Shown here piece by piece: positions 757 through 44,661 of a stretch of 64,000 nt of DNA (position 1 is its first letter; each line of letters starts with the position of its first letter). A program made the translations under genes and the position numbers. The notes beneath the pieces were generated by a model. That model saw only the letters and a list, made by a program, of their open reading frames with translations, was not told the DNA's origin and did not search any database. Where the stretch lies: the NCBI RefSeq assembly GCF_037975245.1, contig NC_092576.1:8883501-8947500 (forward strand), written 5' to 3'. This DNA is from Apostichopus japonicus. Its lineage: Eukaryota > Echinodermata > Holothuroidea > Aspidochirotida > Stichopodidae.

Positions 757-3700
757 CTGTTTCATTGAATGGTATATCGCCGTTAAATGCTTCTGTAGCT
801 GCTCAAACGTTGGTCGAGCTCCGGGTTTCACGTCCCACGACGACAACATCATGCCATAGCTATAGTAAGCACGTGGAGAAATGTTTTAATCACCAATAGT
901 CACGAAAAATTTAAAACAAAACATATGCCTACGTGAGTCAGTTTGTTTTATGCATATCAGACATGGGGAAACTACCGTAAAGTATATCGTAAATATTATA
1001 GGAGAGATTGGGGCTAGTTGAAACAATTTTATAATTTTGTCCACTATGAAAAATATCAGCACAACAGTAATACAATTTTCTCATGGTAATAGACCATGAC
1101 ACTGACTATCATCAATAGAGAGAAAAGTAACAGAATATCATGTATTGAGAAATATTAAGCATGAAAGTGTAATTTGTGGTTGTAACAATCTGTCCGTCTA
1201 TAAACAACCAAAAGAAATTACGACTTTCTCATAACCAAAGTTATTTATTTGATGAACAATGGCCAGGACACAATGAAGCTGTAGTAATGTTCCATTATTG
1301 ATGTGCAATAATCATTACTATCATTGTTTAACGCATTAAGCATGTCATTATAATAATAACGTGGTAGGGATATATAACTAACTTCTGATAGGAATTGAGG
1401 ATCCGTGTGACAGGTATGTGTTATCGGGATTAACCGATTTCACTCAATATGATCAGTTTATAACGTTGTAGGTCTGTGATACATCTTAATGTTAATGAAT
1501 TACAGTGTTACTGGATTGAACACTATATCAGCGTAAATTAGCGATAGACTATATGTTTATCTAGCCTGTTGTAATGCTTGTACTGAACATTTAATTACAT
1601 TGCTTGGCGTAGACCTCAGATGAACTACGTGTATCGTATCGTTGTGACTAATATCGCTCCAGTTTAACTGACGAAAATACCAATCCACCCACTCCGGATG
1701 TGTTGTAATGCACTTTGCTGATAAAGGGTGGTCTTGACCGTTGCAAATTGCACAATGGCGCTTGTTGTGATATACGAAAAGAATAGGTCTATCGTTATGA
1801 TTTACGTTGTTCAAAGACAACACATTGAATATCACAGATATCACCGGTAGCCTGTTTTCGTATATATAACTCACACTGTACCCGGGCAGGCAAGAGACTA
1901 TCACAAAATTGTTAATAGCCATAGAAGCTCTCACACACTACTGCTTGACTGTCTTTATTACTTACATTGCTCCGGGACAACACATTGGCTGACTCAAGTA
2001 ACATTCATTTCTTATTTCCATTTCGACTTCCTCTTTCGACATGCCACTGTATGGAGTTTCTCCTGTAATTCAGAAACAGACAAAGAAACATTCTCAGAGA
2101 AGACATTTTGAAAACCTCCTCAATGTTAATCTAGATCTGATGATAAGCTATTCATCTCTTTTACATTAATGGTTACGATTTTAGTCAACGATTTAAGCCA
2201 GCTTTTAACTGCTTATATAACACATGGAAACGTTTTGGCCGTTCATGTTATCATTAAGTATTGTGCAATACGTTCATCAGGATTACACGATACAAAGTCA
2301 TTTATATAAAGACATTCCGTTCGCGTGAAGATAGGTCAGCGTCATGTCTCTACAGTCACTATGTTTAATGCACATATCCATTGCTCATCTGAGCATGATC
2401 TCCACTAAGATAAGCACTCGTGGCTATTCCTAACTATTTACATGTCCTTTTCAACTTAATTTTACAACAAGCTACCCATTAAGTGATTTTATCGCACCAA
2501 TGTGTTAACCACCATCCGGGTAATACTCTGCTACTAAGCCTAACGTTAGGTCCAAAGCAAACGCAATCATTTTGACCAAGAGCCCTGGAGTAAAAGAACA
2601 ACATGGAATTTCGTGGGTTTGAGGATGTTCTCCATTGATAAACAATGCCAATTTTTAAACCTGCAGCCCGACAACATAAAAAACTTCAAGAATTGTGATG
2701 TATAGCGTTACTGGATTGATAACTGTTTCAATTAACAGAAACTGGGCGCCCCAAGTTAAACATCGCTATAATTACAGGAGAGAGTGAATTACCACAGAAA
2801 TGACACATTAAACTACGTACGTGAGAGCCTGCCAAAAAATTCGACAACATTTCCACATGGGGAAATCTGTCGATAGTATGGATTATTTTGTTTCCAAAAG
2901 GAAAACAATATTACGAGGTGAAGCTATAAGGCAAGTCAGTCATCAGCTAGATCGATAATAAAGATACCTTTATAACATAACAAATGAATACTTTATGGAT
3001 AGAACTAACATAACAAAGGAATCAAGAACGTATGTATGTAAACAGCTGAACCTACCGAGGGAGAATATCTCCCATATAGCAACAGCTAGTGACCAAACGT
3101 CAGCTTTCTCACAATATTGTCGAAGGAAGATCATTTCAGGAGAAAGCCAAGCCAGTGGAGGATTTTTCTAGATGTCAAAGAAAGAAGTATGAAATGGAAA
3201 AACTTCACGTTTTTTTTCAACTCTTTTGACCTTTAAATGTTTTTTCACATTGTATACCTTGTAAAATCATTGCATTAAATAAAATTGTCTTATGCATGCA
3301 TCTCCTTCTAAAGTCGTGTTTCAAAAATTGTAAGTACTTTTTAAGTTACCAAGTTTAACAAAAATGACGTTAAAAAGAGCAAATTTCGTATTTTGGTGAC
3401 AGTTAATAGGGTACACCGATGAAAAATCTACACAATAAGGAGATAATAATGTGAGATACCTCAATGCAAAGTCTAGAATAATTGGAACGCGTAACGTCAA
3501 ATAAACTACATAAAATATCATATGTGATAAGGTTTCTTGATTCACTCGGACATATCACGTTTTTACATATTACCTTTTTAAAACTTTAAGATCTCTCAAA
3601 AATTTTTTGAAAAATTACTTCCCTATCGTTATTTCGTAGCAAACAACACAAGATCGGCTTTAATCTTTTACCATTCCCTGCTTATGAGCAATCACGTTAA

Positions 3701-6700
3701 CCCCTTTAAAGCATCCATCATGAATTACTCCAAGCGGACTACCTCTGTAACTTGTAGGTTAGGGCCGGGGAAGTGAAATGTGGTAAATATGGAAAGATGT
3801 GGAAAATGTATCAGGCGTCTCTTTATTCAAGTAGAATCAGCATATCATTTCTCTCTCAAATATGTTTTAATAAATTTTGGAAATTTCAAAACATCAGATC
3901 AAAGACTATTGAGTTTCATGCAAAAAAATGAAACCTGTCAGAACGCAAAGGTTTTTGAAAGATCGGAGACTTCAATACGTTATGTTACAAAATTTGATTA
4001 TTGTAAAAATGGTTCTGTAGAGTTTACCTTTTCGATGATCTGAAGGAGCTTGCTCTTAGCATGTTCTTCAGGCACAAAGTCATACAGTTTGCATTTTCTG
4101 GAGCTGGTAATAAGAACCTTAGAAGTCGTTAGAGCAGGATGCCGGAACTGTTTTTGTATAGAGAATACAATAATTTGTATCACTGTACAAATGCATTGTG
4201 ATAGGACGATACAAAATGGAAACTCCAGTAATTATACATGACAAAGAAGCAATATTATCAAAACCTCAATTTGTTTAGGTTTTATGAGGTTTATTGTACG
4301 CAAAAATGATCGGTATGGGTTTTACTAAACACAAGCTAACAATTCTAGCAAAGATAGCAAGGTATTCATATATACCAGTCGTTTATGGGCGCTATGGTGT
4401 CAGCAGAAACTTGTTAGAGAGTCTGAAATATCACCCTATGCTCATGGCTTTATTAGTTACAACTGGTTAAGGCGAGTATCTGTTAATCAGTTAAAACTGA
4501 TATGTGTAATAATCATCTCTTACCATGTGTTACATATTTGACCAATTGCTATTTAGAAGGGCTTCGAACAGAAAATACTAAAGTCACAATCCTATGCATA
4601 GTGATTGACTGGCTAACCAGACTACTCTGTAAAAGTTTCGCCAATAATTTCGTCAACACTTCAACAGAAAGTGGATGAAACCTTCCTGCAAAACTCTTAA
4701 AATCTGCAATTTGAACCATCTTGACAAGGTAAACTTACTAGTCAAACATAGGGAAAATTGTTTACACGACTAACAAGTCATTTGTTAAAACAGCCTTTGA
4801 GTAATGAATTCGTCTGTTAGTATTTTTCCATAGTTATGTATAGCATCTGCTGACATGTCTAACATGCGTTACGGTTTGATAACATACTTAAGTTTATACT
4901 GATCGAAGGTCCTATCTTATTCACAGTGCAAAGTTGGAAAGTAAAAGGAATTAGACGATTATCATAATTTCCAGCATGTGATTGAAAGACGTGAAACTAT
5001 TTTAATGGGTTTTTGTAACTGTGTGAAAATATTCGTGTTTGATATTAACACATCATTAAATTTGGAAAGATAAGTATTTGCTTCAGTTTGCTTCATATGA
5101 TCACATTTAAACCATTAAAACTCTAAATTGCAAATTTATTCTTTTGTTGCTAGGTCTACAGACCTTAAACAATGTTTTTTCCGAGGCACTGAAGCAGAAG
5201 GCTTATACATTGACTGAGCCTCTTCAGTGTTTTGTTTTAAAATGAAACAGACAGTTTCTTTCGTGCAAGATTGATTAGTTATTTTGTAAGAGACTTCCGC
5301 GGAAAGCAAAAGTAACGCTGCATCTGAAGTGAAAACATTTAACAAATTTAACAAACATTTAAGCTTCTGGGGGATATTAATCAAGGGTGCTAACTATTAC
5401 GCATAAGAGAACTAATATAAAGTCAAATATTGTCGAACTTTGACTTTCATGAGCTCATGGGAATAATTATTGTAACATGCAATGAGGCATAAAAACTTAA
5501 CACATCGCTTATTTCTTTTACTTAGGTATAGTCAAGAGATATGTTACATTTACCAAAGCTGTTCCCATAAATAAAAAAAAAATAAAAAAAATAACAAAAA
5601 TGCCACATTCTATTATATATGGATAACCAACTTCTTGTTTTTTCTAAGTCTAAGTCTAAGTTAGAAGCAACTCTGGTCATAAAAAATTCCTCTAACGTGT
5701 TTAATGTCCATAGCATTCGGGGGGGGGGGGGGGATTTAAGTGACGTTTGTTATGATCAATGGAGAAGGATATAAGTTCTGTTATCTACCTATAAAATAAC
5801 TTTTCAAAATATAACTGCTGATCCAACAACATGCTGATCTGTCATATCACCGTCTGTATTTATATTCAGTGATTGGATTAGCAAGTGTTAAAAAAAACAA
5901 ATCTAAGTTCTGTTCTAACGAAAAACTTGAGCCCATACTCACAAACATGACATTATTTCCATTCCCATAGAATGCATTGATCTTTATATTAGTATTTTGT
6001 TAAATCACGGGAATTTCCTTCATGTTTATTGTATTACATCAAACCAGGGTGATTTGCAAAGTACTTTTATTTGTAAGAAGTTTTTATATTAATTTTGGAA
6101 AGTTGTTGCAAATCCGGAATGTTATAATCCTTCAGCTGTTTCTTTTCATAACAATACTTACATTATTTTCAAAGAGGTAAGCCATTCCTATCACAACGTC
6201 AACTGAAAATGCAGTAAGGTGCAGTTTTTGGTCCTCTAACGATACTGTTTGTTGAGCAATTGACAAACTTTGTTGAGAGTCCCTTTTATTCTGATAGTTT
6301 CTTAGCATATAGTTCCGCAAAGTCCCACACTCCACGTACTCATGGTAAATATAATATGGTGCTGTGTAATCATGGAGAAACACAAACGTCAATATTCAAG
6401 AATTTTCCACGTTTAGTAGAAATGTCGTGTTGATACAAGAGTCAATGCGAGTTGAAACATTGTCAGAAGAATGAAACATTCTTGTAGCTCTCAAATTAGT
6501 TTCATAACAACCTTTGAAACATTGTGGTATACAGTGTATTCCCTATTTTTTTTTACTACTAACGCTTATGGTACCTTAAGCACCACATTATACGACAGTA
6601 CATTGTTAACAAAGTCGGAAACTGTTGTTAATAACATACTCGACTAAATGTTCCCAAAGTCAAAATGTGGTGCAACATATATATTGCATTGCGTGTTACA

Positions 6701-8648
6701 TCTACTCGTGAATTTACCATTTATGTGCATCGACAGGTTTACCCAAATGAATCACCCGATACATATACAGAACACAGACACTATCGTAAATCTTACAGTT
6801 TGGTACGTGCACAGCAAAAACTGGATCGTGTGATAATTCGGCAGCATGTGCTATTAGGATTACAGTAAGAACTGAGGATATGTGAAATTCCAACAAATCC
6901 AGTTGTTGGATATTTGTTGGAATTACAAATATCCACAGTTCTTACTGTAAACTTAATACCACATGCTAACGATTTATCAGATTTGTCAGCACAATCCGAT
7001 ATTTACTGTGGTACAAAACTTTAAGATTTACAGTGTAATCTCTGTTTGAATCGGCTGAATGAGTGGACTATCGGCAAAGGTTTCAAAGCCTCAACAATTT
7101 AATGTTCTAAGTGATTGTATTTGCTTCCCATGTCCATCTCACATGTCACACCTAGTATTCATCACTTACGGTTATCCGCTGCTACTCCAAGGACATGGAC
7201 AATATTATCATGCTTTTTTAGGGTAAGCAGTTGTTGAGCTAATGTCCGGAACTGAAGCAGGTTAACCACCTGAGCTGTTTCTACCATTCAAGAAAAGATA
7301 AATATGAGTTTCAATAGTTATGCAGTTCCAAATGATTCTGTTTCAAACGGTGACATAAATGTCAGCATAAAACAGTAGCTTTGAATATTTCTCAGTCAAA
7401 ACATTACAATGAAGAACATTGTTATCAAGATTGATGAGAGTGACTAGGTTACACCATCTGTTTTATTGTAATTTCACTTTCAAACCTCCTTATGCTATGT
7501 TAATATTTATGATATTCAAATGTAATTAGTATAATGTATTTATCAACTGTTAGTATAATGGACCGTTACCTACATAATAATTACTTTCTTGTTTCATTTT
7601 ACCGACAAATACACTTATCTTTCTGCTGAGACAAGCCAATTATAAAACGCGGTTAAAGGCATTGAAGACTCGCCTGAAATCGCGTACCGCCCTCTGAAAA
7701 AAGTTAACTTTCCGTTGCCTGTTAGTGATTTTTTTCTCGCTATAAAATGCAGACAGTAATGAATCGTGGTACCTTGTTATCTTTTATCTAGACCTGAGAT
7801 GTCCATCGCTGCTTTGTACATTGTGTTGAGGGTATTGACCGTAGCTGCATGTATTGACTGTACACTAGTGTCTAATTACCAACGGTAGCAAGCTGTGTGT
7901 GTATTTTCTGGGATCGATGGTGGTATCTAACAATTCGTTACACCTCATTCGAAACTATGTCAGATTACCGGCATCAGACGTTTCAGTTTGTGCGCGAGTC
8001 TTCACACCCTTTAAGGAGATATTTCATGTTTCTGTTGTATTCTTAAAACTAGATTCCATATAGTTGAGGACATGAAAATTCACTAATGCAAAATAAGTAA
8101 CGTAAGTTGCAGTAGTAACCATTATGATCTTTTTTTGTAGAATTTTTAAACTGTTCTAATGTATGAATCATTGTTGGTGGAAATTGCATTAACGAAAGTA
8201 TTGAACATAATCAGTGTTCATACATATCTGAAGTGTATTATAATTCTATTAGATTCTACACTAATTAAAGGTATCATTTAATGAAATTTAGTTTAGATAG
8301 ATATGCAAATTTAAAAACATTTTGATAATGAGGATGAAAATGATGATGATGGTGATAATGATGTGATGGTGGTGTGATGGTGGTGATAATAATGATGATG
8401 ATGATAATAATAATAATGATACAGAATCTTAAAATCTCTACATATGAATACATCATTATCCTTACCCGAAACGCACTTGGCAATAAATTCAATATTACCA
8501 GTTGCTGTTGAGGATGGACAAGTAGCAAACCAGTACTGCATTGGCCCGTCACCGGGAAGCTTTGACGTCATTATTACGTCATCACGTCGTATATACTTCG
8601 CATCCTGAGCTACGTCTTCTATTGTATTTTCGTCTGCATTCGAACTCA
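757..8648 (-). CDS. Gene A pseudokinase-domain exons
   Basis: Seven exons. 8466-8648 encodes the N-lobe with a degenerate glycine loop (GDGPMQYW) and the beta-3 Lys (FIAKCV). 7170-7280 encodes helix C, where FRTLAQQLL has Leu at the usual Glu position, then HDNIVHVLG. 6162-6361 encodes the hinge ([14 protein letters not shown]) and helix E. 4028-4147 encodes the catalytic loop [10 protein letters not shown] and KLYDFV. 3056-3167 encodes WLSPEM and [12 protein letters not shown]. 1966-2062 encodes ETPYSG and the helix G region. 757-859 encodes YGMMLSSW and GARPTFEQL. The C-lobe scaffold is well kept while the catalytic Asp and Asn are replaced. Confidence 0.87.
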
Positions 8649-11600
8649 CTATAAAATAAATAAGGTTAATACACACTAGAATATTTTACCATAAAAAGCA
8701 GCCTTTTAAACCAAGTTGAGATAATAAATGCTTTGCTATCCGTGTGGAGTGCCTTTATTTCTTCCAGAAATGAGAAGAGACATCCAAATAAGACCAATGA
8801 AATCACATCACTACGTCTCACGTTTCATTTTTCTAAATCATATATCGGTAACTACATATTTAAAAATTTAACAAGGCCCTTTTTTAATAATAATATTATG
8901 TTACAATTGGGTTTAGCGTAATGTTTTTCAATACCAACAATACAATAAAGAATAATAATATATTTAATCGCACATGAATATCATTTGTGAACTTCAGCAA
9001 AATAATATATAATTACTTTGTAGGATATTTAAAAATGTGATCTACGAATGTCACTAGCTGAACGTGCAAAAACGTAAAAACGTTTAAATAATTCATTCAG
9101 AAACTAAATATATGTTAGGGAATATGATATGTTAAATTCTGGCTCTTCAAAGTGGCTACTGAATCTAACATACATGTTTTAATAATATCGTAAACAAACC
9201 AGTCAACATTCAATTGTATGTTCACGTATTGGCCACAAGTACACAAATAATGAAAAAGAAGTATATTGTTCTTCAAAATAGCTATCAATGTTAAATTCTC
9301 TTACATATTTAAACATATTTATATCGTAAACAAACCAATCAACATTCAATTGTATGTTCACGTATTGGCCACAAGTGCACAAATAATGAAAAGAAGTATA
9401 TTGTTCTTAAAAATAGCTATCAATGTTAAATTCTCTTACATATTTAAACATTTATATCGTAAACAAACCAATCAACATTCAATTGTATGTTCACGTATTG
9501 GCCACAAGTACACAAATAATGAAAAAGAAGTATATTGTTCTTCAAAATAGCTATCAATGTTAAATTCTCTTACATATTTAAACATATTTATATCGTAAAC
9601 AAACCGATCAACATTCAATTGTATGTTCACGTATTGGCCACAAGTACACAAATAATGAAAAAGAAGTATATTGTTCTTCAAAATAGCTATAAGTGTTAAA
9701 TTCTCTTACATATTTTTTTTTACGTACCGCTGTATTGGCAAGATACACCTTAGTTATAAGTAAAACATGATTTTGTTTTCTTCAAAATGAGCAACAAATG
9801 TTAACTTCTCCTACATTTTCCTATATAATCGTGTGTTTATGTACTATTGTTCTCCAACAATTTAAAAATGAATACATTATATGTTTCTCAAATTGAGTTA
9901 AAAACTAAACACCAGTTACATATTCGGGTTAGTAATAGTCGTCAATAGTGAATGATTCTTTCCTTCTTATACGTTAAATAATGTAATTGTTCAGATATGA
10001 TGAGTAGAACGGTAAAGGGTGGGATGGGGGGGGGGGGGAGTGGAACTGTACTAGTGGTTACACACTATTAACGATAAATTCAAATGGCAATATAGTAACT
10101 TACTTTGAAAGTCCGAATCATTGCCAACCTCTGAAGAAATGACGGCTAAGTCTGACGGTCTACATGGTGAAGGAAGCGTATTATAATTTACACTTACAAA
10201 TATAAACTAAAATTACAAGAATATAGATAATATCGTTCATTGTTATCTCTCAATTTATAACTTGTGCGTCGATTTAGGAGTACCGTAGTCTGTCCCAACT
10301 TTGTCTTCATCAGCGCATGAATGTGTACATAATTGTTCTCTTTACCATATTTCGCTATTATACGTTAAACTTATTCTTCGTTACAAATCAAGATGTTATC
10401 AATGTTACATACTAGTCGAGAGTAACGATTTGCATGGCAAAGAATCGATGTAAATTTACACTCACAAGATAATTATAAATTATAACTAAAAGTATCATTG
10501 GGTAAGATCGTTGATATCCATCTGTCGATTAAACACTCAGGAAAGAATGCTTTTATTGGGAAGTTAATTAAAAGAAAGCATTTTACTAGGTATCGTTCCT
10601 CGGATTCCTTTTCATGATGATTTAATTGCCGTTAAACTGTTTCTGGTAGATTTTATTGGCTAGTGTACGTTAAAGTTTGCTCTCAGAAGAAAACAAGAAG
10701 TTTTCAGTTTTTAATTATCAGTCAAGTATGACGACATACAGTTCGAAAGTTTTCTTTTTTTAAGTAACATCGACAAGAAATAATGATTACTTACAATTAT
10801 TAGATGACATCTTGAATATTCTCATCTCGATTCAGAAGAATAAATTGTTGACAGGGTAGTATTATGCAACGTATTTCCTTTGAAATTATGCATGATTGAC
10901 TATTCGCTAGGGTAATTAAAGATCAATTTCTTTAGAAGAAGATGAGCGCAAATCATAGTAAATGTTAAAATAAATACTTCTAGAAGAAAATAAAAGACAT
11001 ATGACAACTTACTTTCTATGAAATGACGTTGTTAATCCTGTAAAGAAGGAAAAATGATTATTATTGTTTACTTACGGCTCGAAATGGCAACTCATTGCAC
11101 ATATATGTTGCTCCCCCCCCCCCCTCCCCCTCTCTTGTTCAACGCGTTTGAAATTAGCTATAAACGATATCACGGAAGTGTTAACACAGTACGTGAAAAT
11201 ATAAAACGTTTCTATCAGCATTATCACTTAACAAAATAAACTTAGCTGATGGGTTTTTATAACAACAAACGTAGAAATGTAAACGAAATGCTACTGGATA
11301 AAATATTGCGTGCGTCTGTCGCCTAAGAATTGTGGCTTATTACTAGTTTTAACTTTCAAGGTAGCCAAGTAAAGCTTTACCATAATGTGTTTAAACGTTG
11401 TTACCTTTAATGCAAGCCAGGCATACCAACGTCGTAATTACAAAGAAACCGAATAATGACGTTCCGACTTTTGTCACCGTGTACGTCCAAATCGATCCAT
11501 TTGGCTCTACAATTGAGAGGTGAATCGTTTCTGAAATACAAACAAAATATTGTAATTGTCTGGCCGTAATACTTAAAGATACTTCATAAATAGGAATACA

Positions 11601-12970
11601 AACAGTTTATTGTGAAATGTAGACTTCATACAACGACCTACTTCCTAGACCAAAAAGTGAACGAAAATGTAATTTATATGTGATAATTGTACATAAAGAG
11701 TTGAATTTGACAATTATATCACAACCGTGTCCTTTAAAGCTTTGGTAAAGCTTCCTTTAATAAGCTACGATCTTTAATAAGCTCGCGCGTGGCTCGGCAA
11801 TCGGATACATCTAATTATTTTACAATCGATGAAACAACTTCCTATATTCCAGCTAATATGAAGCGCAAACGTTGTCAGTTTTCTATGGAAAATCCCAGCA
11901 CCCCACTCCTGTATGCATTAACCACACACAAAAGTACAGTAAGTTGTTCAGGTTTCTTATCTAAGTTTATCTTTCATGATGATACTAGTGACAAGTATAT
12001 AATGTAAATGTAAACCATTTGAGCAGGAAACATCCCTTACTTGTGGCCAGCATCATGCATTTGTTGAAATCAAAAGATGAGTAACGTGTTATTGAAATAT
12101 TTGCTGCTTCAGCAAAGATCAGATACTTACTTAATAAAAATATGTTACGAATCTATTCAAGTCAACGTTTACTTCCACTACCGTTAAAGATTTTAGTGCC
12201 TGATCTCGAGGTATAGGACACATAATGCACCGTGGAACAATATGTGTTCCAAAAACTATGCAGTGGTAAGGAAACGGATGGGTTATTGATTAAAGAAACT
12301 TTGTCTTTGTTTCCTGAAAGGATAACAAACATATCTATTTTGCAGTTTTGTAAACCTTTAGAATCTGCTTGTTCTCTATTACTTATGTATAAGTTACGAT
12401 ATAATTACATAATTAAAGAAATATATTCAATCTTTGACATAAATATGTGCATTCTAAGTTACTTACAAAAGATTTACCACATGAACTCACCATTGGTACT
12501 GAACTGGACTGTAGTATTCTGTTCAGTTGTGCTATCTGAAGAAAGTAGAAGACAGGCGATGGTTCCATTCGATGTTTTGGGCTGAAAATAAATCCTCGAG
12601 ACAATATCGAATGTTTCATTATTATACGTTAGAAAAGAATAGTGAAAAGGGATAACTGTTTCATCATTCACTTGCCAAGTAAGGTTGTTTGCTTGTCTTG
12701 CTCCCACGACGTGACATGATGCAGTGATATTCTCATCACCGAGGAGAACAACGTGATCCCCATCAGAAAAATTCCTGTTGTTTACTTCCAAGTAAAATGC
12801 ATTTGGTGAAACTGTGTAATGATAAAAAAAGTTATCCGCATAGGTTAATAAGTATAGACCGATGGGTGGATGTAAAGTGGGTAGATTCATGGGTAGAGAG
12901 ATAGGTTGAAAGATGAATTGATGGATAAATGTATGGATGGCTAGATAACTAGAGAGAAGAACGCAGACAA

Positions 12971-13007
<37 letters not shown>

Positions 13008-13450: not shown

Positions 13451-13468
13451 TTTGATTTGTGTGTACAA

Positions 13469-16222: not shown

Positions 16223-16286
16223 ATACATACTATACTTACATACATTATTACATGTTACTTATTTAAAACGCAGACAACTTTATCTA

Positions 16287-25367: not shown

Positions 25368-25424
<57 letters not shown>

Positions 25425-26913: not shown

Positions 26914-26957
<44 letters not shown>

Positions 26958-30618: not shown

Positions 30619-33423
30619 ATGGATGTTGTTTTACGTTTTCACTTAGTTCTCTTTGTGTGTAGTGGTTTTCATGGTCATGGGTTTTCTGATATCAACATCA
30701 GTGCCAATAAACACGACAACGTGACTTTAAACTGTTCCTTAGGAATTGATGTTACGCCTTCTGAACAGAAATGGAATTATAATGGACAAACGATTTACAG
30801 TGGATATCAAGTGCTGTGGTCAAGAAAGTCTGCTGTCATACAACCTCCGCATTACGCTTTAGTAATGAATAACGTTTCCATATCGGAGGAAGGGACCTAC
30901 CAGTGTTGTATTGGTACAACCCGTTGTGTTCAATACCAATTATCAGTAAACGGTAAGGTTTGCATATGTGTCTTTCACATGGCTCGAAGTGGTATCTTCA
31001 TAAATCATCGGGTTGTATCATTAATACCGTGTTTAGAGGCATATACGGTCCACTCTGCTTATTGACACTTCATAGCAAATGCTGCAAGTTACGTTACTAA
31101 TCTCACATCATGAAGATAGCGCAATTTATTGATAACTGGCAAAATTAATAATGCTTTCTTAAACCTACCGTTGACAACTGTATAGGTTATAAACTTGATA
31201 GAAGCTAGAAAAATAGATACAATCAATGACATTCTTGCCAGGAAAGTTTAAGTCAAAACAACTGCGTAACATTTGGTGTACCAAACAGTCTATACTCCCT
31301 CATCCACGTTGGTTTCTATAACTTTAATAGCTTATGTGATTGTTAATTTGAACTCAACGTTATTATTTTAGCAGACAATCCCTGTTTATTATTACAATAT
31401 AGACATGTCCGTTTCTGTTTATAACTTTGAGCTGATGTTAGTGTTGAAATACGTTTAAAGCATCTACAACAAGCTGAAAATTCTACACTTTGAAAATTTA
31501 TCAGGTACAGGTGGAATATATATTTGCACTGGTGTAATATCTGGGATAGTCTCTGAATCCATGTTAATAACCCACATTCATGTTTTGATGTAAATGACTG
31601 TAAATGATAAGTAATGCATACTGTATTTTTCATTGCTGGAAACAAATGAATGAATGAGAATAAAATATATTCATTTACAGACTTAGCAAAGTGTTATTTA
31701 ATATTCAAATACCTAAAATTACCTTTCAAAGATAAATTTTGCTTTCCCTGTGCATTGAAAGTAACGAGGTAAGGAGAGTGAGTGCTCATTTTGCGTCAAA
31801 GGAGACATTGCTTCTTCATATTGTGCTTTCTAAATTTCACCCATTATAACATATCGTATTTCTCCATTTTTCAGTTCCTCCGAGGTCGTTTTACATTCTC
31901 TCCGGCGAATTCGATCTCACCGATGGAGATTATCTCCCCATCAAGATGAACCAGACAGCCAATGTTTCGTGTTATGTTATTGGTGTACGCCCAAAGAACA
32001 AACTAAAATGGAACGTCAACAACATTGGAAATATCACTGATATAAACTACAGTGTGGAAGATTCAGTCGACCAGGGAACTTTTAATATTCATTCATCTTT
32101 TCAATTTCAACCACCAACCGTTAGCGGAACATTAACATGTGCACGAACAACAACTGATTCCGCCCTTCAAGAGAGCATTAAAGTTCGTTTTTCTGCTTAT
32201 GGTATGTTTCTTCTGTTTCATTCGAGACATTTTTTTTCGTTTTATTTTTCTTTCTTTAAAGAATCGTTAGCTTTAATTTATTACATTCTGTGCTTTGGGC
32301 AAATCAGAAAATGTTGTTCAGTCAAGTTGCAATGTTAAGAGGGGGCCCTTATGAAGTGAAACCTGTCAAACGATAAAGTTTTAAATATTGATCTGGTATT
32401 TTGGTTATCACTTTTCTCTACCAGTGGCACCGAAATTGTTTTATATGATGGTTGATGGAATAAACGTTACCAATGGTGAACAACAACTTCTGGAGGCAGA
32501 TCAGCCGATCAAGGTTTTCTGCCAAGTTCTGGAAACGCACCCAGAAAATAGCATTAGCTGGTGGGTCGATGGGATACTACAGGAATCATCAGTGACCCCA
32601 TATTACAGTGGTTATAATTTGGAGGGACAGAGGCTTCATAGTACCAATTCGACTCTTAATGTTTACCCCCGTGCTGTCAACGGAAGTGTAGAATGCCTTC
32701 GAAGTACGTTGGGCGGAGCTATCCGAGACCGAATTGTATTGTACTATTCTACTTTCGGTAAGAAATGTGTGTGTGTGCGCAATGTGACTACTGTATAATT
32801 ATAATATCACAAATGATTCCTACCATCTTGTGAGATTCAAACCACCTATATAGCCTATATACATTGCTGTCTTTGACTGGTGTTTTCTTTCGTTGGGCTA
32901 TGGGTAAAATATTGAGGGAAAGGTTATTTGCATTTCTCTCCTAAATTCAAAAATAAAACCAATTCATGTTCCCGAGCTCCCGTCATAAAAAATAAGTAAT
33001 TTGAGTACAATGTTAATGAAATTCGCAGTTGTTCCCATTTTGCACTATTTGCAATTTTCAAATTTCTGAACATGTTAAGCTATACAACGTTTTTTTTCCT
33101 GGTGGCAGTTCTGGTCAAGCTTAGCCTACTGGTTGATGGAATAGGAGGTCTCAAAGACAGCTACATTGAAGGAGACGTAATAAGGATCATTTGCAAAGCT
33201 TTTGGTTCGAGAACAAAAATTGAATTGGCAATAACAGTGAATAATGCAACGCTATCGCCAGCTTGGAAGAAGATGACATCATTTGATGAAGAAAAACAGA
33301 CGTATAATGTTACTATGGAAGTTCGCTTTTATACAATTGAAATGTTTGGTACCATTGGTTGCAGTTGTAAGGCAAATGGTTGCCATGGGAATCCACGACT
33401 TGAACGAACTTTTTACATGTTAG
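30619..33423 (+). CDS. Gene C ectodomain exons: signal peptide and four Ig-like domains
   Basis: Exon 1 (30619-30952): MDVVLRFHLVLFVCSG signal, then a V-like Ig domain with VTLNCSLG, KWNYNG and EEGTYQCC. Exon 2 (31875-32201): Ig-like, VSCYVIGVRP, LKWNVNN, GTLTCART. Exon 3 (32425-32757): Ig-like, VFCQVLETHP, SWWVDG, GSVECLRS. Exon 4 (33109-33423): diverged Ig-like, IICKAFGS, GTIGCSCKANGC, without the usual Trp. All end in phase 1. The first two match the two Ig domains of genes A and B; exons 3 and 4 look like added copies of the second type. Confidence 0.87.
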
Positions 33424-36400
33424 GTCAGTTTGTCTTGAATATCATTTGATGAAAATTATTCTGGGAATTTTGCAATGAAATAAAGGTTAAGCTCAGATTG
33501 TGTTTTATAAGTGATGGTGTAAACGACACTGACATCAATTATATTTTGATAATCTCCCTGAAAAGTTGTGAAGTAACACTAGAGTCATAAACTTCTAGAC
33601 AACTGAAATTAGTATGCATTCAATGTTTGGAAGCAGATACGCGCTGTCCATTTTTTTTAAACTCTGGATCAAGCACGTTTCCTGGAGGTAGGTTTGGTGC
33701 TACATAGGTTGCTTGTAATCTCAATACACTTGAATGTGAATTAGTATACTTGAGGTGTATTTTTCGCAATAAAACATTTATAGCTTTAGTTAACAACGAG
33801 CTTTATATTATTGGAATTTAGAACACGGTAGAGGTACTTCACTTGTGCAATGCCTAAGATATAATCAACTTGTTAGACCAAATAATATTCAACCAACTTA
33901 GGCTTTCAATATTAATAATGATTATGTTGTTTAACCAATTGAGACTTTTGATTAATATCTTGTACACATAGTGAAAACAATATTTAACATAATGCATCAA
34001 ACATTTATCAAGTAAAGATTATAATTGTTAAAAACAATTAAAAAATTACAATATCACTGTATCTATGACGCAACCACAATTGCGTTGCAATATTACTTTG
34101 TTGGAGTGTCGATATTAATGAGTAATATACAATTTAAAATTCAATATTAAAGTTAAATTTGTTGAATAGTTGTTCAACCGCTTGAGCAATATGATCTTTT
34201 ATTGATGCAACTTCACACGTCTTTCTCTTTCAGACAAAGATCAAACATCCAAAATTGATTCATCCAATGATCTGTTATTAATTCTTGGTTGCTTTCTGGG
34301 CTCTTTCTCTGTTGCTATATGTATCATATTCGCATGCTTTAAAGGTAAGGTTACTATGGGACAGGTGACTTACAGATGTGAACAAACGACATCCTCTAAG
34401 TGTACTATACTTTCTTTGTAACAATGTTATTATCTACACAAATCTGCAAGGTATGTATTTTACAACACAAGCAAAGTGAAGTGCTGAAACTATATTAGCA
34501 AATCTTCTTGTAATAACACGTAATGAACGTTCGTGTATTACTTATTATGCAACAAAATGAATTCAAGCGTGCAACTGTTACAATGTTTTTTTTTTTTTTT
34601 TTTTTGGCCACAGCGATTATGAAACGACAAACGTACCTTTTATCGTAAGTTTCGCTAACATTATGTTTTCGCTATCTTCATGAATGAAACTTATAGTCAT
34701 TATTATGTTTCTAATATTTTTAAAGAACTTTAAATTACTGCAATTTATCCAAAATATTAATGTAGGTTACATTTGCCCTAATTCTTTCTGTATTATAGTT
34801 CATACGGTAAAGAAAGAGAGAGAGAGAAATGCGCAAATAACATATATTGCATAATGTTATAAACGGCTTACCACAGTGTTCTGCACACTCAACAACCATG
34901 AAAATAATTAATGTTTCATTTCTCAACTTATATGGTGTTGTGTGTTACAAGTTTCATGAAGAACAACATGAAAAAAATCAACATACATAAGTACTGAATA
35001 CACAACACTAACCTTTCAAAGTTGTTGGAAATGATTGTTTGCTTATATTTTTATTATCACGTTTCTCTTTCTATTTACGTAGGTTATTGCGTGAGCATGA
35101 CGTTCCCGGAGAAACGGACGTCCAAATACATACTCTATGTAAATAACGTTAATGTTGAAAAAAATGTTTTTTAACCAATCCTTTGAAAATATTGAGTTTG
35201 AATACTATTTCATTTGATATTATGTACCAACCCACTTATTTCACTGCAATCCATATGATTTATTATTTACTAGGTCCCACTGTATACAACAGTAGGCTGT
35301 AAGTAGGAAACATTCATTTTTCCATTTGCTTTGTTATCTGTTTAAATTTAATTGAATTTAAATTATTTCCTAACAGCACGTAGCATGCCTCATGAAAATC
35401 GTGCCAGGTAGGCAACATTTCTATTCCAAGATGCATGTTAAAATATGTTTAATCTCTTTTTCTTTCTCCCATAATTTTGTTGATATTAACAGTATTCTTT
35501 TTTGTAGCCATTTGCGTGACTAACTTGAAAGATTTCCGTTGTAGTCTAACTGACGGTCAGGTTATACATCTATTAAATTAGAGGGTTTCACACTAACCCT
35601 TTGGGTTATAAGCTAAATATCACGATAAAAGAATTTTTACTTGATCAATTCATTCAATCAACATATGTGCATATAATCGATTCTGTAATTTAAATTGAAT
35701 TGAACAAAATCCTCTGTAGACAGTCTGGAGTATTTCGTTTAAAATTGTTTTCTTGTTCACAGCGTCAAAAGCAACATTGGTTGTTATACCACACGCATAA
35801 TCTCCGATGAAGATGAAGGTGAAGGTGAGTGAGCAATCCGTAATAATTATTTTACAGATTCGACAAAATTTAATGGCCAACTGGAATACTTCAAAACTAA
35901 ATCATACATGCAAACGTTACGATTATTTATGATATTTTTAATGTTTAGAACAATGTTTCATTAACATTGAATACCTTTTCAGTGTTGGCATATGGTGACT
36001 AATGATACGGGGAAAAATTGAAGGCATATGCGATTGAAGTACATACAGATAAAGTTACAGAGCAGTGATATAACGAAACGATAAATAAAACGATTACTCT
36101 TTGAAAGTATGCAGACTGGCTTAAATGTTTAGAGTATTAGAAGAATGAACAAGAGGTTAATGAATTCAGGTTAATTTATCGAAAGAAGTTTTGTATTAAC
36201 AGCTGATATAGCTCGCTCGATGTCACAAATGCGCCAGCAATGGACATGTGATAACTCAGTTAGGGAAATCACCTAAGACATTTTTTTCTTGACGCAGTTG
36301 TTATTCCTCATAGGAATGAGCCTTTTGCATTCAACGTTACTAAATTACTTAATGTGTCGACCTGTAACATGTACAAAGTAGTTTTTAAGCAAGCTTGATT

Positions 36401-39400
36401 TAGATTAGTCAGGTAACATTAAGTGACCACTCTAAATGTATTCACTGAGTTTATCAAGGTTTACAAAGAGAGATCCCGGATTATCGTCTTGTTACGCATT
36501 GACTCGCCACGGTTACCTCAATCAATAAACTGACTTACATTTACTATTTCATTTTACAGAGATAAGCAGCCAGGATAGAACTTCTCGATGGTACGGATAT
36601 TTATTTATGAAATGTAGTGTTCATTCCTAAATTAATGATAACAAATGAAGATGGTGTCTGGAATTCTAAAAGGCATGTGGAAGCAAAGAGGAAATGGATC
36701 TTAATGTAGTACTAACGTTTTAGATAATATGTCCTGCATCAGTAAGTAAAAGATCAAATGCAAAACTAAACTTGTTTTAAGAATAGGGTTGAGTTTATCT
36801 TTTTGTCATTTAATTGATACAGTCGCAGACTTCCAGAAATACCAAACGATGAAGAAGAGAGCGGTGAATATGGTACATAATTATTAACATATAGGTTATT
36901 TTATGTTCAGACATTTTGAAATTTTCCTTTCCGTCGCAAATACAAGTTAATTTGTGTAGTAAATATATGATTCAGTGCAATGTATTTGTGCATGTGATTC
37001 TAATTACCTTCAATAGAGAGTTTATCAGGAACTAGATCTGAGAGTATGATTTCATCATTTTACCATGATGATAACATAATAAAACAAATCATAACACTTT
37101 CTAGATTCCTTTACATCCATGCAGTTATTTATCAGGATTCCTTTACACCACACCAAGGTATTAACTATTATGGTTTATCAAAGCATCTAAATATATAACC
37201 TAAAGTTAAAATCAAGATAGTTATTTCCCTTTCGTAGAAGGCAAGCGATTGAATTACCTTGTACTAGTGTGGTTTTAGCCTCTATACACGTAGTTGTTAA
37301 TCTCGCATGAGATACGCAAACTTACGCTTTACTATGATTCTGTTCTTGTCCACAAAGCTGAGATATGTGTTTGGGGAAATAACAAAATAAATTCGACGTT
37401 CAAAGTACTTGTTGTAAGAATTGAGATAAGCATGTATCAATTTTTGTTATTTATTTTATATTTGAATGTTAATTATATGTGTAAAGCTTAATCAACTTTC
37501 ATCATTGTTGTAGAAGTTAAGACTTACGTTATATATTTATCAAGCAGTCAGTCACTATGCATGTAATATGTTGGAATTATTAATCGTGATGATACACTAA
37601 CGCTTGTAATATTGTCCTTTTTTTTAATAGCATATTATTCGGATTCAAAAGAAATAGATTCCAAAACGCAGATGTTTAAGCTACAGGATGTGTGTGTTCT
37701 TGCGAAACTTAACTTTGGAACCTTATACAAACGCTGGACAGGAACAATTACTCACAAAGACAATCTCAACAAATGTGTAGTTATCACCACGGAATCAGGT
37801 AATGCCACGTTACTAACAGTTTGTTTTGGTGACGGATAACTGCATCAATTGTCTATTGGTCACCGAAAATAACTTGTTGGTAGTGACACGACACGCTGAG
37901 AAACGTAACATGTGTTTGTAACACTGGAATGTTCCATGTCATGGACAATATGAATTTGATCGTAGTATTGTTGTGTCACTTTGATACAGGTATTTGCAGA
38001 AGGAGTGCATTAATGTCGAAATATACAACATATGCCTACCTCTTAAATTGCAAGGGATATACACCTACCGACTTAAACCACCATAAGTGCATGTTATAAG
38101 CAATTACAGTAGATAGTATGAACAGTTGAAATATTTGTCGTCTACCTGATAGCACTTCCTAGCAACACTTTTGGACTTTGGTATTTCGCCAACATTTATT
38201 TTATTTTGTTAAAGATACCCGTATGAAGTATTGCATGTTGTAGGAAATAAGACCATTTATAAAATGTCCTTCATAATACAATCTTGTCTGAATCATTACT
38301 AAATATGTTGTCTTATTTGGCATTGCTACAAGTTACATGATTATGATAATGAAACTTTTATTTAAAAAAGGAAAGATATTCTACGTTATACTTTTATCAT
38401 ACTAAGAAAGGTAAAGACAATTTTTGTCGTGAATACAAAAGGCATTACATTTTAATTTCTATAAGCTGTTCTAACGTAACAATTTCTAACCGGATCACAT
38501 CTTTAGTAACGATATCTCATAATGATTCGTTTTTGTTATTTATTCACCTATAACAGGTAAAAATGAAACGAACAAACGTTTACATTGGAATGCTTTTGTG
38601 CGACGTCTTCTGGAACTACCCGCGAATTCCAAAAATCTTGTAGGAACAGAGGGGATATATATAGATGGAGGTATGGTAATTTAAGCTTGATTGTATTTAG
38701 AAAGAATTTAAAAAGACAAATTTACATTACTCTTAAAGTCAGTGTAGGATACCGTAGAATGTAGTCCATAATGACCTCCACTTCCGCTGCCCCTGTCGGT
38801 AGTAACAAACTTGGCAGACCCGAAGTGTTTGGGTGGAGGATGCAACTGAAGGCGAGGAGCTATGTGGAGATTCCCACCAATACAAAATAAAAGAATTTCA
38901 GGTCACTAAAACTTGAATAATCAAAAGGTCGATAATTAGCAATATGGAGAGAGATACAATCACCTTCAAGTATCTCTAATGGATTTGACGGTGTAACTGT
39001 CAAATATATGGCAAACCGCATTTCTAAAATCGATGGACACTTTGCCATGTGTATCAGTGAACATGATTTAATCAGCCTAGTTTATCTACAATGTGATTTA
39101 GAATATGTGGTATTAATAATCATGGACATAAGAATATGCCACTTGACAGAAGTCTTGGGCATGAAGACATCATTCGCTGTGGTACATCACTCTCTTTGAA
39201 TAATGTTCAATATTTAAAAACAGCCTCATATTATAGCTTCACCTCTCCCGTGAAACATGCGCAGGAGCGATGGTTTGCTGTTAAGTTACTAGAAATTAAT
39301 TCCACTTAAAATATTTCCGTTTAAATTAAAAAGTGTTTTTTGTGTCATTGTTAGATCAGATTTATCTTCTACAAGAACACTTGGTCTCTCAAACCCTACA

Positions 39401-42400
39401 AACGTTGATGGCTGATGGTTGTTTTGAAACGAATTGGTCCTCATCGATGGCAAGGAATTTTATATTGGATGTCCTAGGAGGAATCACTTTACTGCAATCA
39501 TATGGGGTAACGTATTGGTCTCGTTTATCGGTAGCATAAGAGTTTGCCCTACAATATTGTCATGCAAATGGCTGCTTTGAAAACATATCAATCACTCTAA
39601 AGTGACTGCATTCGCCTTTGTTTCGTGCTTCATGTACATTCTTCGATTCTATTCTGTTCATAAACTGATCAAGTAGGAACGCTTTGTAATAGTTTCGAAG
39701 TCAATGAAAGTCAAAATCAGAAAGCGATTAACCCTTTTCCAAACGGGGGGTGGAGAACAGCCCAACAACTCAACTCATTGTAAGCTTACAATTCCGTTTC
39801 AATTACAACCATTTCACAAATGATTGTTCATCGCGTTAGATAGTGACAAGCGGATTTCTAGCTCTCTTTCAACTTAAAAATCAAAGCTTACGGGCACCAT
39901 TGAAGTAATTACGCTAATGAGTTTACTGATAGTTCCCTTTCCATGCATACAGATAAAACAGCACGATAGGAAGAGCAACGTAACATTTACGAAACGGACA
40001 AGTAAAGAAAAGTGAAAGTGTGGGAACTTTTAAGTAAAGTAACGAATAAAATATTTACTCAAAGTTTTAACTAAATAGTCAGTCTGTATGGATGAGTTTG
40101 TCCTGGGTTGATGATTCAAGATAAACAGTTTTAAATGTATCCCGCTGTTGTAATTTGCTTTTTTATGTATTCGCAAGTATATTTGGAATATTTTCAGTAT
40201 CATTAATCTTCACTGTTATTTTTGTATATGCCTTTGAGCTGCTAAACTGTAATGATACTACTATCACATTTTTTGCAGCTGTTGCATCCAGGATTATCAA
40301 GGAGTAAAATTCTTGTGACGAGTTCACGAAATTGTAAATTATATGACTTTTGTCTTCCTGACGACGCTTCATTAATTGTACGCTCGATCAAGTCAAAGGT
40401 AATATCACCACATATCAACACAGAACGACTATCATATGAGTGAATGAATCTATAGTAACACCTAAGTTAACCTGCCAGTAGATACGAACCTACTGAAGAC
40501 TTCGAAATCTGCTATGAAATAATTGGTATTTGTAATTTCGAGTCGATTTATTTTAACCTTGCAATCGTCGCTAACAGTAACTAAATAATATTATTTTTGT
40601 TCCATTGCAATAGTTCATTGGGCTTTGTTAAGTAATAATAATTTACTCTAATTTGACAGACATTTGCTGCAGCAGATCATTGTTAATGATCACTGAGATA
40701 TTCATAGGTTATTCACATAAGGCACACAAGCCTGTAGTGAAGATGAATTATTACCTGTCAGAAATATCTGACAACACATTATTCGAAAGTAATTATGTAT
40801 GCCTATTCTCATGTTTAAATCAAAAGTGAAAATCGTACGCGGGCAAACAAGCTATCGCGTCAGTAATGAATAAAATAGAGCCGAAACGAAAACCACGGAA
40901 GGCATAAGTAGGGGGAAAAAAGAATTTGAACATTTGTGTTGCTTTCTTTTATTACCTATTGAGTTGTTGTTTTTTTTCAATTGAGGTGTATCCCTATTTG
41001 ACAGCTATATTTATGTTTTAAAGTCGATTGTTCATCATACATGTGTATTGACAGCATAGAAGGATTGTAAAGTAAAAAAATGTCATATTTTCCCCACAAA
41101 TCACTTGAGCAAGGATTATGAAGGTACGTTGCACATCTAACTTATTAAACCTCCATTTTTACCACAGTTAGTATACATCTTTGGATCACTTTAATGGTTG
41201 TATTAAAAAATATAATTGAGTTATTTGTTTACTATTTATAGGTCAAGTGCACACAAAACCAGCTTCCTTTGGAATCATGGCAAAGAAATGAATATACCAA
41301 AGAGAGTGATATATGGTCTGCTGCAGTCGTTATCTGGGAAATAATGTCAAATGGTACTGTTTTGGAATCTTTTTGTTATGAATACAGTAAAACATTACGA
41401 AATTACCAATTAGAATAACACTCAGTTCAGTAATAGAGATTTGAAACAGGAAGAAGAGAGTTAATTCAAAAAGTATTATCCTAGTGCATGCTTACCACAT
41501 AGTTACGTCTTTTAATCGCAATAAATACATTAATAAGTCTGACGAGTACGTATTTTATACTGTAGCAACAGTATTCAATCAGTATGTTATGTGTAGGGGT
41601 AGCCGGACGTCTTCATTAAGCGATAGGGATTAAACAAGGATCGATATGAGTCGTTTAGCAGACCTGTAACTCAGGCAAAAGTGTTAATAATGTGTTGAAA
41701 TATTCACAATATTTATTATAATTAAACGTTATACCTTACAGGCACGTCATTTCCAGGTCGTGACGAGGCAATCAGTGACTGGAGTTACAGAGCAAACCTC
41801 TCTGATTGCTCGACAACTAATTGCGAATTGAGGTATCGTTCTCTGTATAGTACCAGGTGTAATCGATATATATGTAAACGCGATATCTTAAAGTATAAGG
41901 TGTTTGAAGTGTCGTATTTTTTTAGTCCAATGTACTCTCTCTATTAGCCTATACGTCCTATTGGTAATGATCTGGTATGTTTTACATCAAGCTACAGTGT
42001 TTTACTACTTTCTGCAGGATGATTAGAAAGTATTTAATTTTTCACAATGCGAGGTTATACAGTGGTATGATTTTCGCATAAGCTTAAATGTAGTGGTATG
42101 TCATGTCTGCCTTGGAAACGTTCAATCAATCCGTTCGCATATGCTTTAGTACTTTTTTCTGCTCAGTGACAATCGAACATGTGATAGTAATCGCTGTAAG
42201 TATTTTGTTATTATGCAATATGATATTGTAACCGTCGCCGAAGTTCAACAAAGCTGCAACTCTGCAGTGTGAGTTAACAGTAGATGAATGCAGATCGAAC
42301 TCTTGTACATAACCTGAGAGGAATGTGCTACAGGCAGCTATAACTTACCTTAATCTTAATGTCCTTTAAACCTGGTGACCATGGCAACTAAATCAACTTG

Positions 42401-44661
42401 GCAATACGCGAGAGTGAGAAGCCTTACTAATAGACTACACTACCTTGAGCACATGAGCAATTCATTTTCTTACCAGTGAGTTATATTTCTCCAACAGTCA
42501 ACAATACAAAATATAATTACTACGAAAATTCTTGTTTAAGTAACTTAACAAAAAAAAACATATCCACCTGCAACTAAAACAATTGCATGCATCACAGTTT
42601 ACCTGTTTAGACGCTATTTCAGGCAAATACGCAGAGGTAATAATAACAGAAAGTCACTAGCTCCCGACGACGTAACATATTCGCATACAGGCAGCTGTGG
42701 AGCTGCTCGGCTGACGCTAAATAAATCAGTTATTCAGACCTATAGAAAATTAATATATGAAAAACTAACTCACCTGGTTAAAATGGGGCTTGGTGAGCTA
42801 TTTCAGACTGGTAAGGCCACAGAATGCTCGCATAATATTTAAGTGTGCACTAGCGGTGAGGCGTATACAACAGCCATACGTGCTGTTCGGTAGTTTAGTA
42901 TAAAATACTACAGGTACCACGCGTTGTCGCTCACTATAGCCTAACGCTGTACATGTACAAAGCTCGGCTGTGTAGGTTTGACGTAAATAATAGGTACAAG
43001 CGATGTAGAATTTCATTACGATCCGTTTCTGGATTTTCGAAGCATAGAATCTAGCGTATTGCCTTTATGAAAAATAAATGTCACCTAAGATGACGAGCGA
43101 CCAATCGATATATACGGATGGATAGAAAAAGGTAGTGATTTTACTGAGTAGAAAGTATTATCGCATAACCATTCATAACTGTGTAAGTCGCAAGAGGTGA
43201 ACGAGGTGAGATTGAGAACGTGGCGCTATTCCCGTATACAAAATATAGGTTCTCCACACAGCAAAAGCGGCAATACATGGCAATAGTGGTGACATCCGGT
43301 ATTCTCTGCGTTATTAAGGGATCTAAAAGAAAACGTATAAATAAGAAAGAATCTAACAAAGAAGCACTATTTTCCCTATAATATGCATGTGACTGTACTC
43401 TACAACTTAAGGTTTCAGTATGATATCCGCATCCATGTTTTCTGCTTCAGGGATGAACTTTTACTTCGATGCTGGCAAACAGACGTATCTAAACGGCCTT
43501 CAATCTTGGAACTGAGGAAGTCTTATGAACAGGTTTGATCTAGATTGTTAACTTGGTTAACGGATTTCCTCTTCATAAGTGTCACATGCTTCAATCACAT
43601 ACAAAGTTCACAACCTCCGCAACGATTCGGAGAAAACATGAATTGGTTCTAATCTAACTGTTACCCCCGGGTAAGGGGAATTCCGGGGTGGTTCGCTTTA
43701 GGGCTGCAGAAAGGAGACAGAGAACATATGATGCAGACAGCTCAATTGGCAGAATAGCAAGCAATTTTTATTATTAGATCAACTTGCAGTAATTTGACTT
43801 TATTCCGGTGTAATACACAATTAATACGACAACATTGACAATATTGATCCAGGGAAATCCCCTAATTATGAAACAAAATAGGTGGCGCCCTTCTAGTACG
43901 TTCAAGAACAATACCACGCTGTGACTTAATACACGATAGGTCTGTATCTACGTTAGACAGTAAACAAACGGCGAGCCTAGCTTAATAGTAATACATTTAC
44001 TAACGACCTCTATGTGATTAACATTTTATGAAATACACTAATTACCCTACTTGAATTACATAGCCTAATTGATAGTTTATATTACCACAGATCACAAGTC
44101 ATGCAACGTACGAACCTTAAATGACGGATTTGACGACAAATAAGTGCTACTCGCTGACCTAACATACAATATTATACGTAATATTCTGTGACATCGTTGC
44201 ACGAGTGGTAACATATTTTAATCTTTTATAACCCCATTGTTTCCCTTAACATCATCAACCAAGACTTAATCAAATCAAAACTAGAGGTGTTTTTATACAA
44301 CTGTTTAAAGTTTGGTATAATTTATGTAAAATTACCTGCAGAAAGGAGACACAGAACATATGATGCAGACAGCTCAATTGGCAGAATAGCAAGCGCCAGT
44401 GAACGTACGTTCCTACATAGGCATGCATGTACACATTTAGTGTGCGTTTAAGTGCTTGTAAATTATATGGAACGCCCATTTGATGATTTTGTAGCGGTAC
44501 CTATTTTTCCGCGCAACATAGCTAACAAGCTACAATGAATAAATCAACAACGCTTCAACGAAATTTGATAACACATTTAATCGTTATTTTCTTTCTACTT
44601 CGTTCCTTTCCAGATTTCATCGCAGAGCGACCTGCAGTCATCATACATGACGATGTCATGA
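30619..44661 (+). CDS. Gene C: four-Ig receptor pseudokinase (complete, spliced)
   Basis: The span includes introns. Twenty-one exons join to 872 codons plus stop with every junction in phase. The protein has a signal peptide, four Ig-like domains, a membrane helix (about 450-472), a linker from eight micro-exons (about 474-577) and a kinase-like domain (about 578-857). The kinase-like domain is more degraded than in genes A and B. The glycine loop is absent (LNFGTLYKRW), the beta-3 Lys is Thr (VVIT, T630), HRD is HPG (725-727), the loop Asn is Lys (732) and DFG is DFC (745-747). SDIWSAAVVIWE and KRPSILEL remain. Catalysis is excluded as far as sequence can show. The most likely roles are a decoy or co-receptor, or a docking scaffold. 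An upstream in-frame Met at 30493 exists, but the signal peptide fits Met 30619. Confidence 0.88.
34234..37157 (+). CDS. Gene C membrane helix and eight linker micro-exons
   Basis: Exon 34234-34344 encodes DLLLILGCFLGSFSVAICI, the membrane helix. Micro-exons follow: 34614-34644 (31 nt), 35083-35138 (56), 35274-35298 (25), 35384-35407 (24), 35763-35824 (62), 36560-36590 (31), 36823-36872 (50) and 37125-37157 (33). The phases run 1-2, 2-1, 1-2, 2-2, 2-1, 1-2, 2-1, 1-1, so groups (31+56, 25+24+62, 31+50, 33) are each multiples of three. The acceptor of the 24-nt exon was chosen at GTAG; the upstream AACAG would put a stop in frame. Tyrosines occur in TVYNSRL, GCYTTRI and GEYVIYQDSF. A run of about 20 T precedes the 34614 acceptor. 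Confidence 0.72.
37631..44661 (+). CDS. Gene C pseudokinase-domain exons and YMTM tail
   Basis: Exons: 37631-37798 (N-lobe, KCVVITTES), 38557-38670 (helix C region, SKNLVGTEG), 39355-39506 (hinge and helix E), 40279-40398 (LLHPGLSRSKILV, KLYDFC), 41242-41353 (SDIWSAAVVIWE), 41742-41832, 43451-43532 (LLRCWQTDVSKRPS) and 44614-44661 (ISSQSDLQSSYMTMS, stop). The last residues contain YMTM, matching the YxxM consensus for PI3K p85 SH2 domains. The region between helix C and the hinge is shorter than in A and B, and an APE equivalent (LPLESW) is only weakly kept. Confidence 0.86.
43704..44394. repeat. 59-bp direct repeats flanking about 570 bp
   Basis: Bases 43704-43762 and 44336-44394 are direct repeats with one mismatch, both starting CTGCAGAAAGGAGACA and ending AGAATAGCAAGC. 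They bracket non-coding sequence in the last intron of gene C. They could be remnants of a small retroelement or a local insertion duplication. No terminal LTR motifs were recognised. Confidence 0.8.

Follow-up and report, generated by a model that had tools for sequence, protein, structure and literature searches.

The analysed window, a stretch of 64,000 nucleotides of the genome of the sea cucumber Apostichopus japonicus (C16:8883501-8947500, NC_092576.1), contains three genes, here called A, B and C, each of which encodes a predicted signal peptide, immunoglobulin (Ig) exons, a membrane helix and a tyrosine-kinase fold. Essential catalytic residues are missing from each, which places them, as a sequence class, among receptor tyrosine pseudokinases. 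Our best explanation, to which we assign a probability of roughly 0.6, is that A, B and C are part of a very large family of Ig-type receptor pseudokinases, single-pass and expanded in this lineage, and would work as receptors that have no catalysis of their own and are phosphorylated by other kinases, in the manner of HER3. Sequence establishes the altered catalytic residues, the common motif and how large the family is; the best-supported mechanism, we infer, is signalling via tail tyrosines that other kinases would phosphorylate.

Exon chains of the three genes were rebuilt from homology blocks obtained by comparing the window with itself and were then extended to splice sites, yielding sequence-only models. 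AG and GT are present at every internal exon border, and the frames remain open across 10 exons in A, 11 in B and 13 in C. Ten exons are matched between A and B and agree in phase; C follows the same order and adds two Ig exons. The Pfam tyrosine-kinase profile PF07714 matches A (1.1e-46), B (7.8e-48) and C (6.5e-24, spanning profile positions 7-256 of 258). The Ig match is clear in C (Ig_3, 46.9 bits, cut-off 30) and barely above the cut-off in A ("ig", 22.5 versus 21.8) and B (I-set, 27.3 versus 23.7); the Pfam search returned no match for the fourth Ig-type exon of C. The Ig2 exons of all three genes and the Ig3 exon of C align with each other, with Cys, Trp and Cys common to all. Signal peptides were judged by eye from the N-terminal hydrophobic stretch, whereas the single membrane-helix exon of each gene was identified via hydropathy and splice phase. 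These models agree with the first-pass annotation of the window, which described three paralogous spliced genes with conserved exon phases. Its range of 595-872 codons has to be replaced by modelled proteins of at least 568 (A, without the tail exon), 601 (B) and 768 (C) amino acids. It also spoke of a tandem cluster: a cluster it is, yet not entirely head-to-tail, because A and B lie on the minus strand and C on the plus strand.

The HRD position reads HPA in A and B and HPG in C, Lys stands in place of the catalytic-loop Asn in all three, and DFG reads DFV, DFV and DFC, respectively, with Gly lost and Asp retained. All these replacements, first noticed on the raw sequence, were recovered on the rebuilt exons. 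Similarly, the loss of the helix-C Glu in A and B, also proposed earlier, agrees with a visual comparison, made in part against a KIT sequence. By eye, the beta3 Lys is present in A, B and family member L169, and C also seems to be without it, reading VVITTES where A and B read IAKCVS.

The earlier suggestion of an expanded family was borne out on a scale that the window could not reveal. Genome-wide searches covered 671.6 Mb in 35 contigs. Two queries with the catalytic-loop exon, each with 150 listed matches (weakest E-values 0.12 and 0.008), together identified at least 214 sites, with 102 on C12 and 57 on C16 among the matches listed. Seven more sites, all on C12, came from a third query, giving at least 221, spread across much of the genome, with about three quarters on C12 and C16; this number is a lower bound on exon sites and not a count of working genes. 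We counted motifs in 80 sites, comprising 20 weaker matches and a random 60 out of 167 unread ones. At the HRD position the random sites read HPG (36), HPA (9), HPV (3), HPC (3), HPE (2), SPG (2) and, once each, HPS, NPG, HPD and -PW, one being unreadable; of the 59 readable sites, one has Asp where the HRD Asp would be. The catalytic Asn position holds Lys in 55, Arg in 2 and Asn in 2 (one unreadable), and the DFG Gly is found in none of the 60. The weaker matches give nearly the same picture: HPG 15, HPA 3, HPV 1 and HPI 1, no Asp in 20, Lys 19 and Arg 1 at the Asn position, and no DFG Gly in 20. The replacement Pro is present in all 79 readable sites and is encoded by all four codons (CCT 44, CCA 20, CCG 9, CCC 6), which argues that selection, and not just recent copying, maintains it. 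A stop within the catalytic-loop exon was seen in 1 of the 80 sites (L104). For counting, a degenerate DNA pattern for KLYDFxP was dropped as too noisy (50 matches versus 26 in a reversed control).

The same counts bear on whether these proteins might be unorthodox active kinases that use another residue as the catalytic base. The DFG Asp is kept in 54 of the 60 random and 19 of the 20 weaker sites, and the beta3 Lys of A, B and L169 points in the same direction. However, base, Asn and DFG Gly are jointly replaced in A, B and C, and C seems to lack the beta3 Lys as well, so that we regard retained activity as very improbable.

Association of the family with Ig ectodomains extends beyond the window. 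Using 90 of 92 Ig fragments (two were left out), we found that 43 of the 90 Ig2-like matches (E up to 10) have a family site at most 25 kb downstream on the same strand; 2000 random placements averaged 1.7 and never exceeded 8. One gene on C12 was read upstream and revealed an Ig exon (C2-set_2, 23.8 bits versus 21) as well as a hydrophobic exon and one for the juxtamembrane part that has the beta3 Lys. Such upstream exons were read for a minority of family members.

The proposed mechanism depends on the C-terminal tail. A, B and C have a GT at the same place, and without splicing there the last kinase exon would run into a stop. The tail of B is the next phase-0 exon and is also kept in B', a copy of B; that of C, ISSQSDLQSSYMTMS followed by a stop, carries the motif YMTM and ends at 44661, the end point already given in the first-pass annotation. 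Scanning 17 loci produced tail candidates in three (L049, YFTL; L059, YFSL; L058, YHVM), and a genome search with the L049 and L059 tails identified seven places, namely the two queries and five others. Each of the seven follows a family site on its own strand at a distance of 2.0-2.6 kb, with a chance probability of 0.003 apiece. YF[NSTI]L is present in 9 of the 11 tails read, the others having YMTM (C) and YHVM (L058). The nine YFxL tails have acidic residues before the motif, an additional Tyr 12-13 residues on in every case, and synonymous change among them at the Y, F and L codons. The immunoreceptor tyrosine-based activation motif (ITAM) has acidic residues, then YxxL and a second YxxL/I about 10-12 residues on; hemITAM is its first half. 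That first half fits the nine YFxL tails, but their further Tyr precedes [IT]E or the C-terminus and not xxL/I.

In sequence, the kinase fold is kept, the base Asp, Asn and DFG Gly are replaced by a motif that is itself conserved, and the kinase domain is succeeded, in members where it was found, by a tail exon whose tyrosines are conserved. In the mechanism that we propose, the Ig part would bind a ligand or another cell, and the receptor would pair with an active tyrosine kinase, which would phosphorylate the tail; SH2 proteins could then dock there. The dead kinase domain would serve as a dimerisation or scaffold piece, as in HER3, the ectodomain of which is not Ig. HER3 has an impaired kinase and tail tyrosines that dock SH2 proteins, and a single YXXM is necessary and sufficient for its association with p85 (PMC4279368, available part). 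A, B and C would work in a similar way, with tail tyrosines seen in B and C among the three. The loop motif of HER3 differs (HRNxxxxN with DFG, in the part of PMC13259870 that was available), and the tail of the family is short, with YFxL commoner than YxxM.

Ratios of nonsynonymous to synonymous substitution rates (dN/dS) were computed by the NG86 method. Between A and B they are 0.475 for the Ig exons and, as a rough value, 0.193 for the kinase exons (catalytic-loop exon 0.102, APE exon 0.093); Ig exons therefore evolve faster than kinase exons, and the kinase part is not near 1. Together with the replacement motif kept family-wide, this upholds the initial impression of functioning genes selected for a non-catalytic role. 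Decaying copies of B and C exist at other places in the genome, which might suggest that A, B and C are decaying too. Their frames are open over all modelled exons, though, and with an A-B kinase dN/dS of 0.19 we rejected decay of A, B and C as scarcely credible.

The dead catalytic residues of the family, along with repeated active receptor tyrosine kinase (RTK)-like exons with HGD in the same genome, are also what one would see if these proteins were decoys or dominant negatives, which would capture ligands of active RTKs, or form dimers with these RTKs, and weaken signalling while sending no signal of their own. A pure decoy, however, would have no need of a conserved kinase C-lobe (the central exons have an A-B dN/dS of 0.09-0.10) or of a tyrosine tail that is conserved, and we consider this role improbable.

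A further proposal, compatible with the best explanation, concerns purpose: an immune or allorecognition receptor repertoire diversified in its Ig part. The faster Ig exons (A-B, 0.48 versus 0.19) and the clusters with decaying copies are consistent with it, but among the pairs compared (A-B, B-B' and C-C') none has a convincing dN/dS above 1 in the Ig exons, the highest values being 0.99 for Ig2 and 1.42 for Ig4 of C-C', on 27 and 12 changes. Such a repertoire may exist, and we put it forward tentatively. The other values are 0.39 for the Ig exons of B-B', 0.32 on few changes for its kinase exons and 1.3 on six changes for its hinge exon; C-C' gives 0.75 for Ig1, Ig2 and Ig4 together (Ig3 is omitted because it is frameshifted in C') and 1.8 on eight changes for the helix-C exon.

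The two decaying segmental copies, of B and of C, occupy C16:7429000-7445211 and C16:9022300-9036600. Judging from this decay, the family seems to undergo birth-and-death turnover. A further Ig2-type exon is present at C16:7444900.

Several observations weigh against the best explanation. Site L154 reads HPD, with Lys and DFC, and the Asn is kept in the two random sites mentioned above. The A-B kinase dN/dS is rough because dS is 1.3 for the kinase total (it is not computable for the transmembrane and juxtamembrane exons alone), and the C-C' kinase value is 0.56, on few changes and with one copy decayed. B' has no match to exons 4 and 5, which encode the N-lobe, and C' has frameshifts in the Ig3 and helix-C exons and a stop in the APE exon; since these copies decay, family sites cannot be equated with working genes. 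As for the tails, that of A was not found in the window or in the 1.2 kb beyond it, and that of C was not found in C' by literal match. The 17 loci scanned include two genes twice, and only seven of them have at least 900 bases past the last kinase exon. The five tails read first, those of B, C, L049, L058 and L059, were chosen from open-frame lists, two of the nine YFxL tails served as the queries that led to five more, B' is merely copied from B, and the tails of L058 and C are without supporting relatives.

Relationships to other kinases were analysed at several levels. A C-lobe tree, which has several long branches and in which four of the seven non-family rows are less than half filled, separates 22 family rows from seven other tyrosine-kinase rows of the same genome with support of 100/100, and the split persists without the long row C. 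Eighteen other kinase exons of the genome were read, chosen by kinase profile and hence biased to active ones; the catalytic loop was seen in 17, and all 17 keep Asp and Asn. Among solved structures, the best matches to A over most of the kinase domain are KIT (1e-32) and FGFR2 (7.5e-32), while one EGFR chain scores higher (7.7e-37) through two copies of a C-lobe match. FGFR/KIT-type RTKs, which have an Ig ectodomain, are thus similar in the kinase domain; their catalytic HRD, Asn and DFG are intact, whereas those of A, B and C are replaced.

PTK7 was considered as the parent family and rejected: the motifs differ, and L005 on C8 (HADLAARN), which we take to be a PTK7-like gene, falls outside the family in the C-lobe tree. 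A close tie to PTK7 is therefore not supported; PTK7/CCK4 is likewise an Ig receptor pseudokinase, but its motif set, HKDxxxxN and ALG according to the available part of PMC13259870, is absent from A, B and C. The abstract of that source counts eight human receptor tyrosine pseudokinase genes, and its table shows catalytic loops of HRG, HRS, HRN or HKD and none of the form HP[G/A]xxxxK. These proteins (HER3, PTK7, ROR1/2, RYK, EphA10, EphB6 and STYK1) are likewise single-pass, with an RTK-type fold and altered motifs. The contrast is one of scale, eight human genes with varied loops as opposed to at least 221 sites sharing HP[G/A]xxxxK here, and the family would offer many natural variants of a pseudokinase scaffold for comparison. 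It would also be a candidate for a novel deuterostome recognition system.

A different recurrent group of kinase exons (L081-L084 on C21, C18, C17 and C19) has HGDLAARN and an intact DFG in the four read; these are apparently active RTKs and possible partners of the pseudokinase receptors. Kinase exons L085 (C4) and L086 (C20) read DRDLAARN...DFGMSREEEE, with similar profile matches on C4, C14, C19 and C20.

Expansions of possibly related genes have been described in sea cucumber. The available part of PMC6018497 gives 38 Fgfr genes, linked to regeneration, with the added ones mostly in a separate clade, and that of PMC5638244 an expansion of "tyrosine-protein kinase receptor" genes; the word "pseudokinase" has no occurrence in the main texts of the two papers. 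Possibly these expansions are the same family as A, B and C, in which case they would be read differently. Among the matches listed in open-licence literature no echinoderm receptor-pseudokinase family is reported; in the parts available, PMC11507063 deals with RIPK/MLKL and PMC10322840 with a KSR-type gene. A bolder, and in our view rather unlikely, picture would be a hundreds-strong Ig recognition repertoire built on a single ancestral kinase that lost its activity once and was then retained as a tyrosine-tail scaffold, with part of the "Fgfr expansion" being this dead-kinase family.

Exons are given here by window position. Gene A (minus strand) consists of exon 1 with signal peptide and Ig1 (13120..13450), an Ig2 exon of phase 1-1 (12491..12811), a transmembrane exon (11405..11530; hydropathy 2.12 and splice sites), a juxtamembrane and beta1-3 exon (8466..8648), and helix-C (7170..7280), hinge/insert (6162..6361), catalytic-loop (HPA..K..KLYDFV, 4028..4147), APE/DVW (3056..3167), C-lobe (1966..2062) and last kinase (757..859, then GT) exons. 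A 136-bp tandem repeat with 3.9 copies (9185-9715) is found within an intron of A.

The corresponding exons of B (minus strand) are exon 1 (27853..28189), Ig2 (27309..27626), transmembrane (26694..26828; hydropathy and splice phase), juxtamembrane and beta1-3 (23862..24044), helix-C (23327..23437), hinge/insert (21794..21990), catalytic-loop (HPA..K..KLYDFV, 19555..19677), APE/DVW (18355..18466), C-lobe (17530..17626) and last kinase (16916..17018), followed by the tail exon (16530..16619) kept in B'. A 339-bp tandem duplication (17710-18387) adjoins the APE exon of B and repeats part of it.

Gene C (plus strand) starts with exon 1, again signal peptide and Ig1 (30619..30952), followed by Ig2 (31875..32201), Ig3 (32425..32757), the fourth Ig-type exon (33109..33423), a transmembrane exon (34234..34344; hydropathy 2.69) and a juxtamembrane and beta1-3 exon (37631..37798). 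Its helix-C (38557..38670), hinge (39355..39506) and C-lobe (41742..41832) exons are weak assignments by frame, phase and position plus conservation in C', where the hinge exon is 99% and the C-lobe exon 100% identical. The catalytic-loop (HPG..K..KLYDFC, 40279..40398), DIW (41242..41353) and last kinase (43451..43532) exons and the tail exon with its YxxM (44614..44661) complete the chain.

Elsewhere in the window, an open exon at 63040-63549 (minus strand) has Ig-like Cys/Trp/Cys spacing, with no match in Pfam, and is perhaps a piece of a fourth gene. A 330-bp tandem satellite occupies 48233-51177 (8.8 copies, 97% matches). In the assembly, the mitochondrial contig C35 (16,099 bp) carries a COX1 that translates best under the echinoderm code, as judged by conserved residues, and its tRNA order is the one that sea urchins and sea cucumbers have in common; COX1 comparison leans towards a sea cucumber. 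PSP94-like genes, tried as a sea cucumber marker, gave no match here and none in 14 controls, and are thus uninformative. Besides C35, contig C29 also has COX1 fragments.

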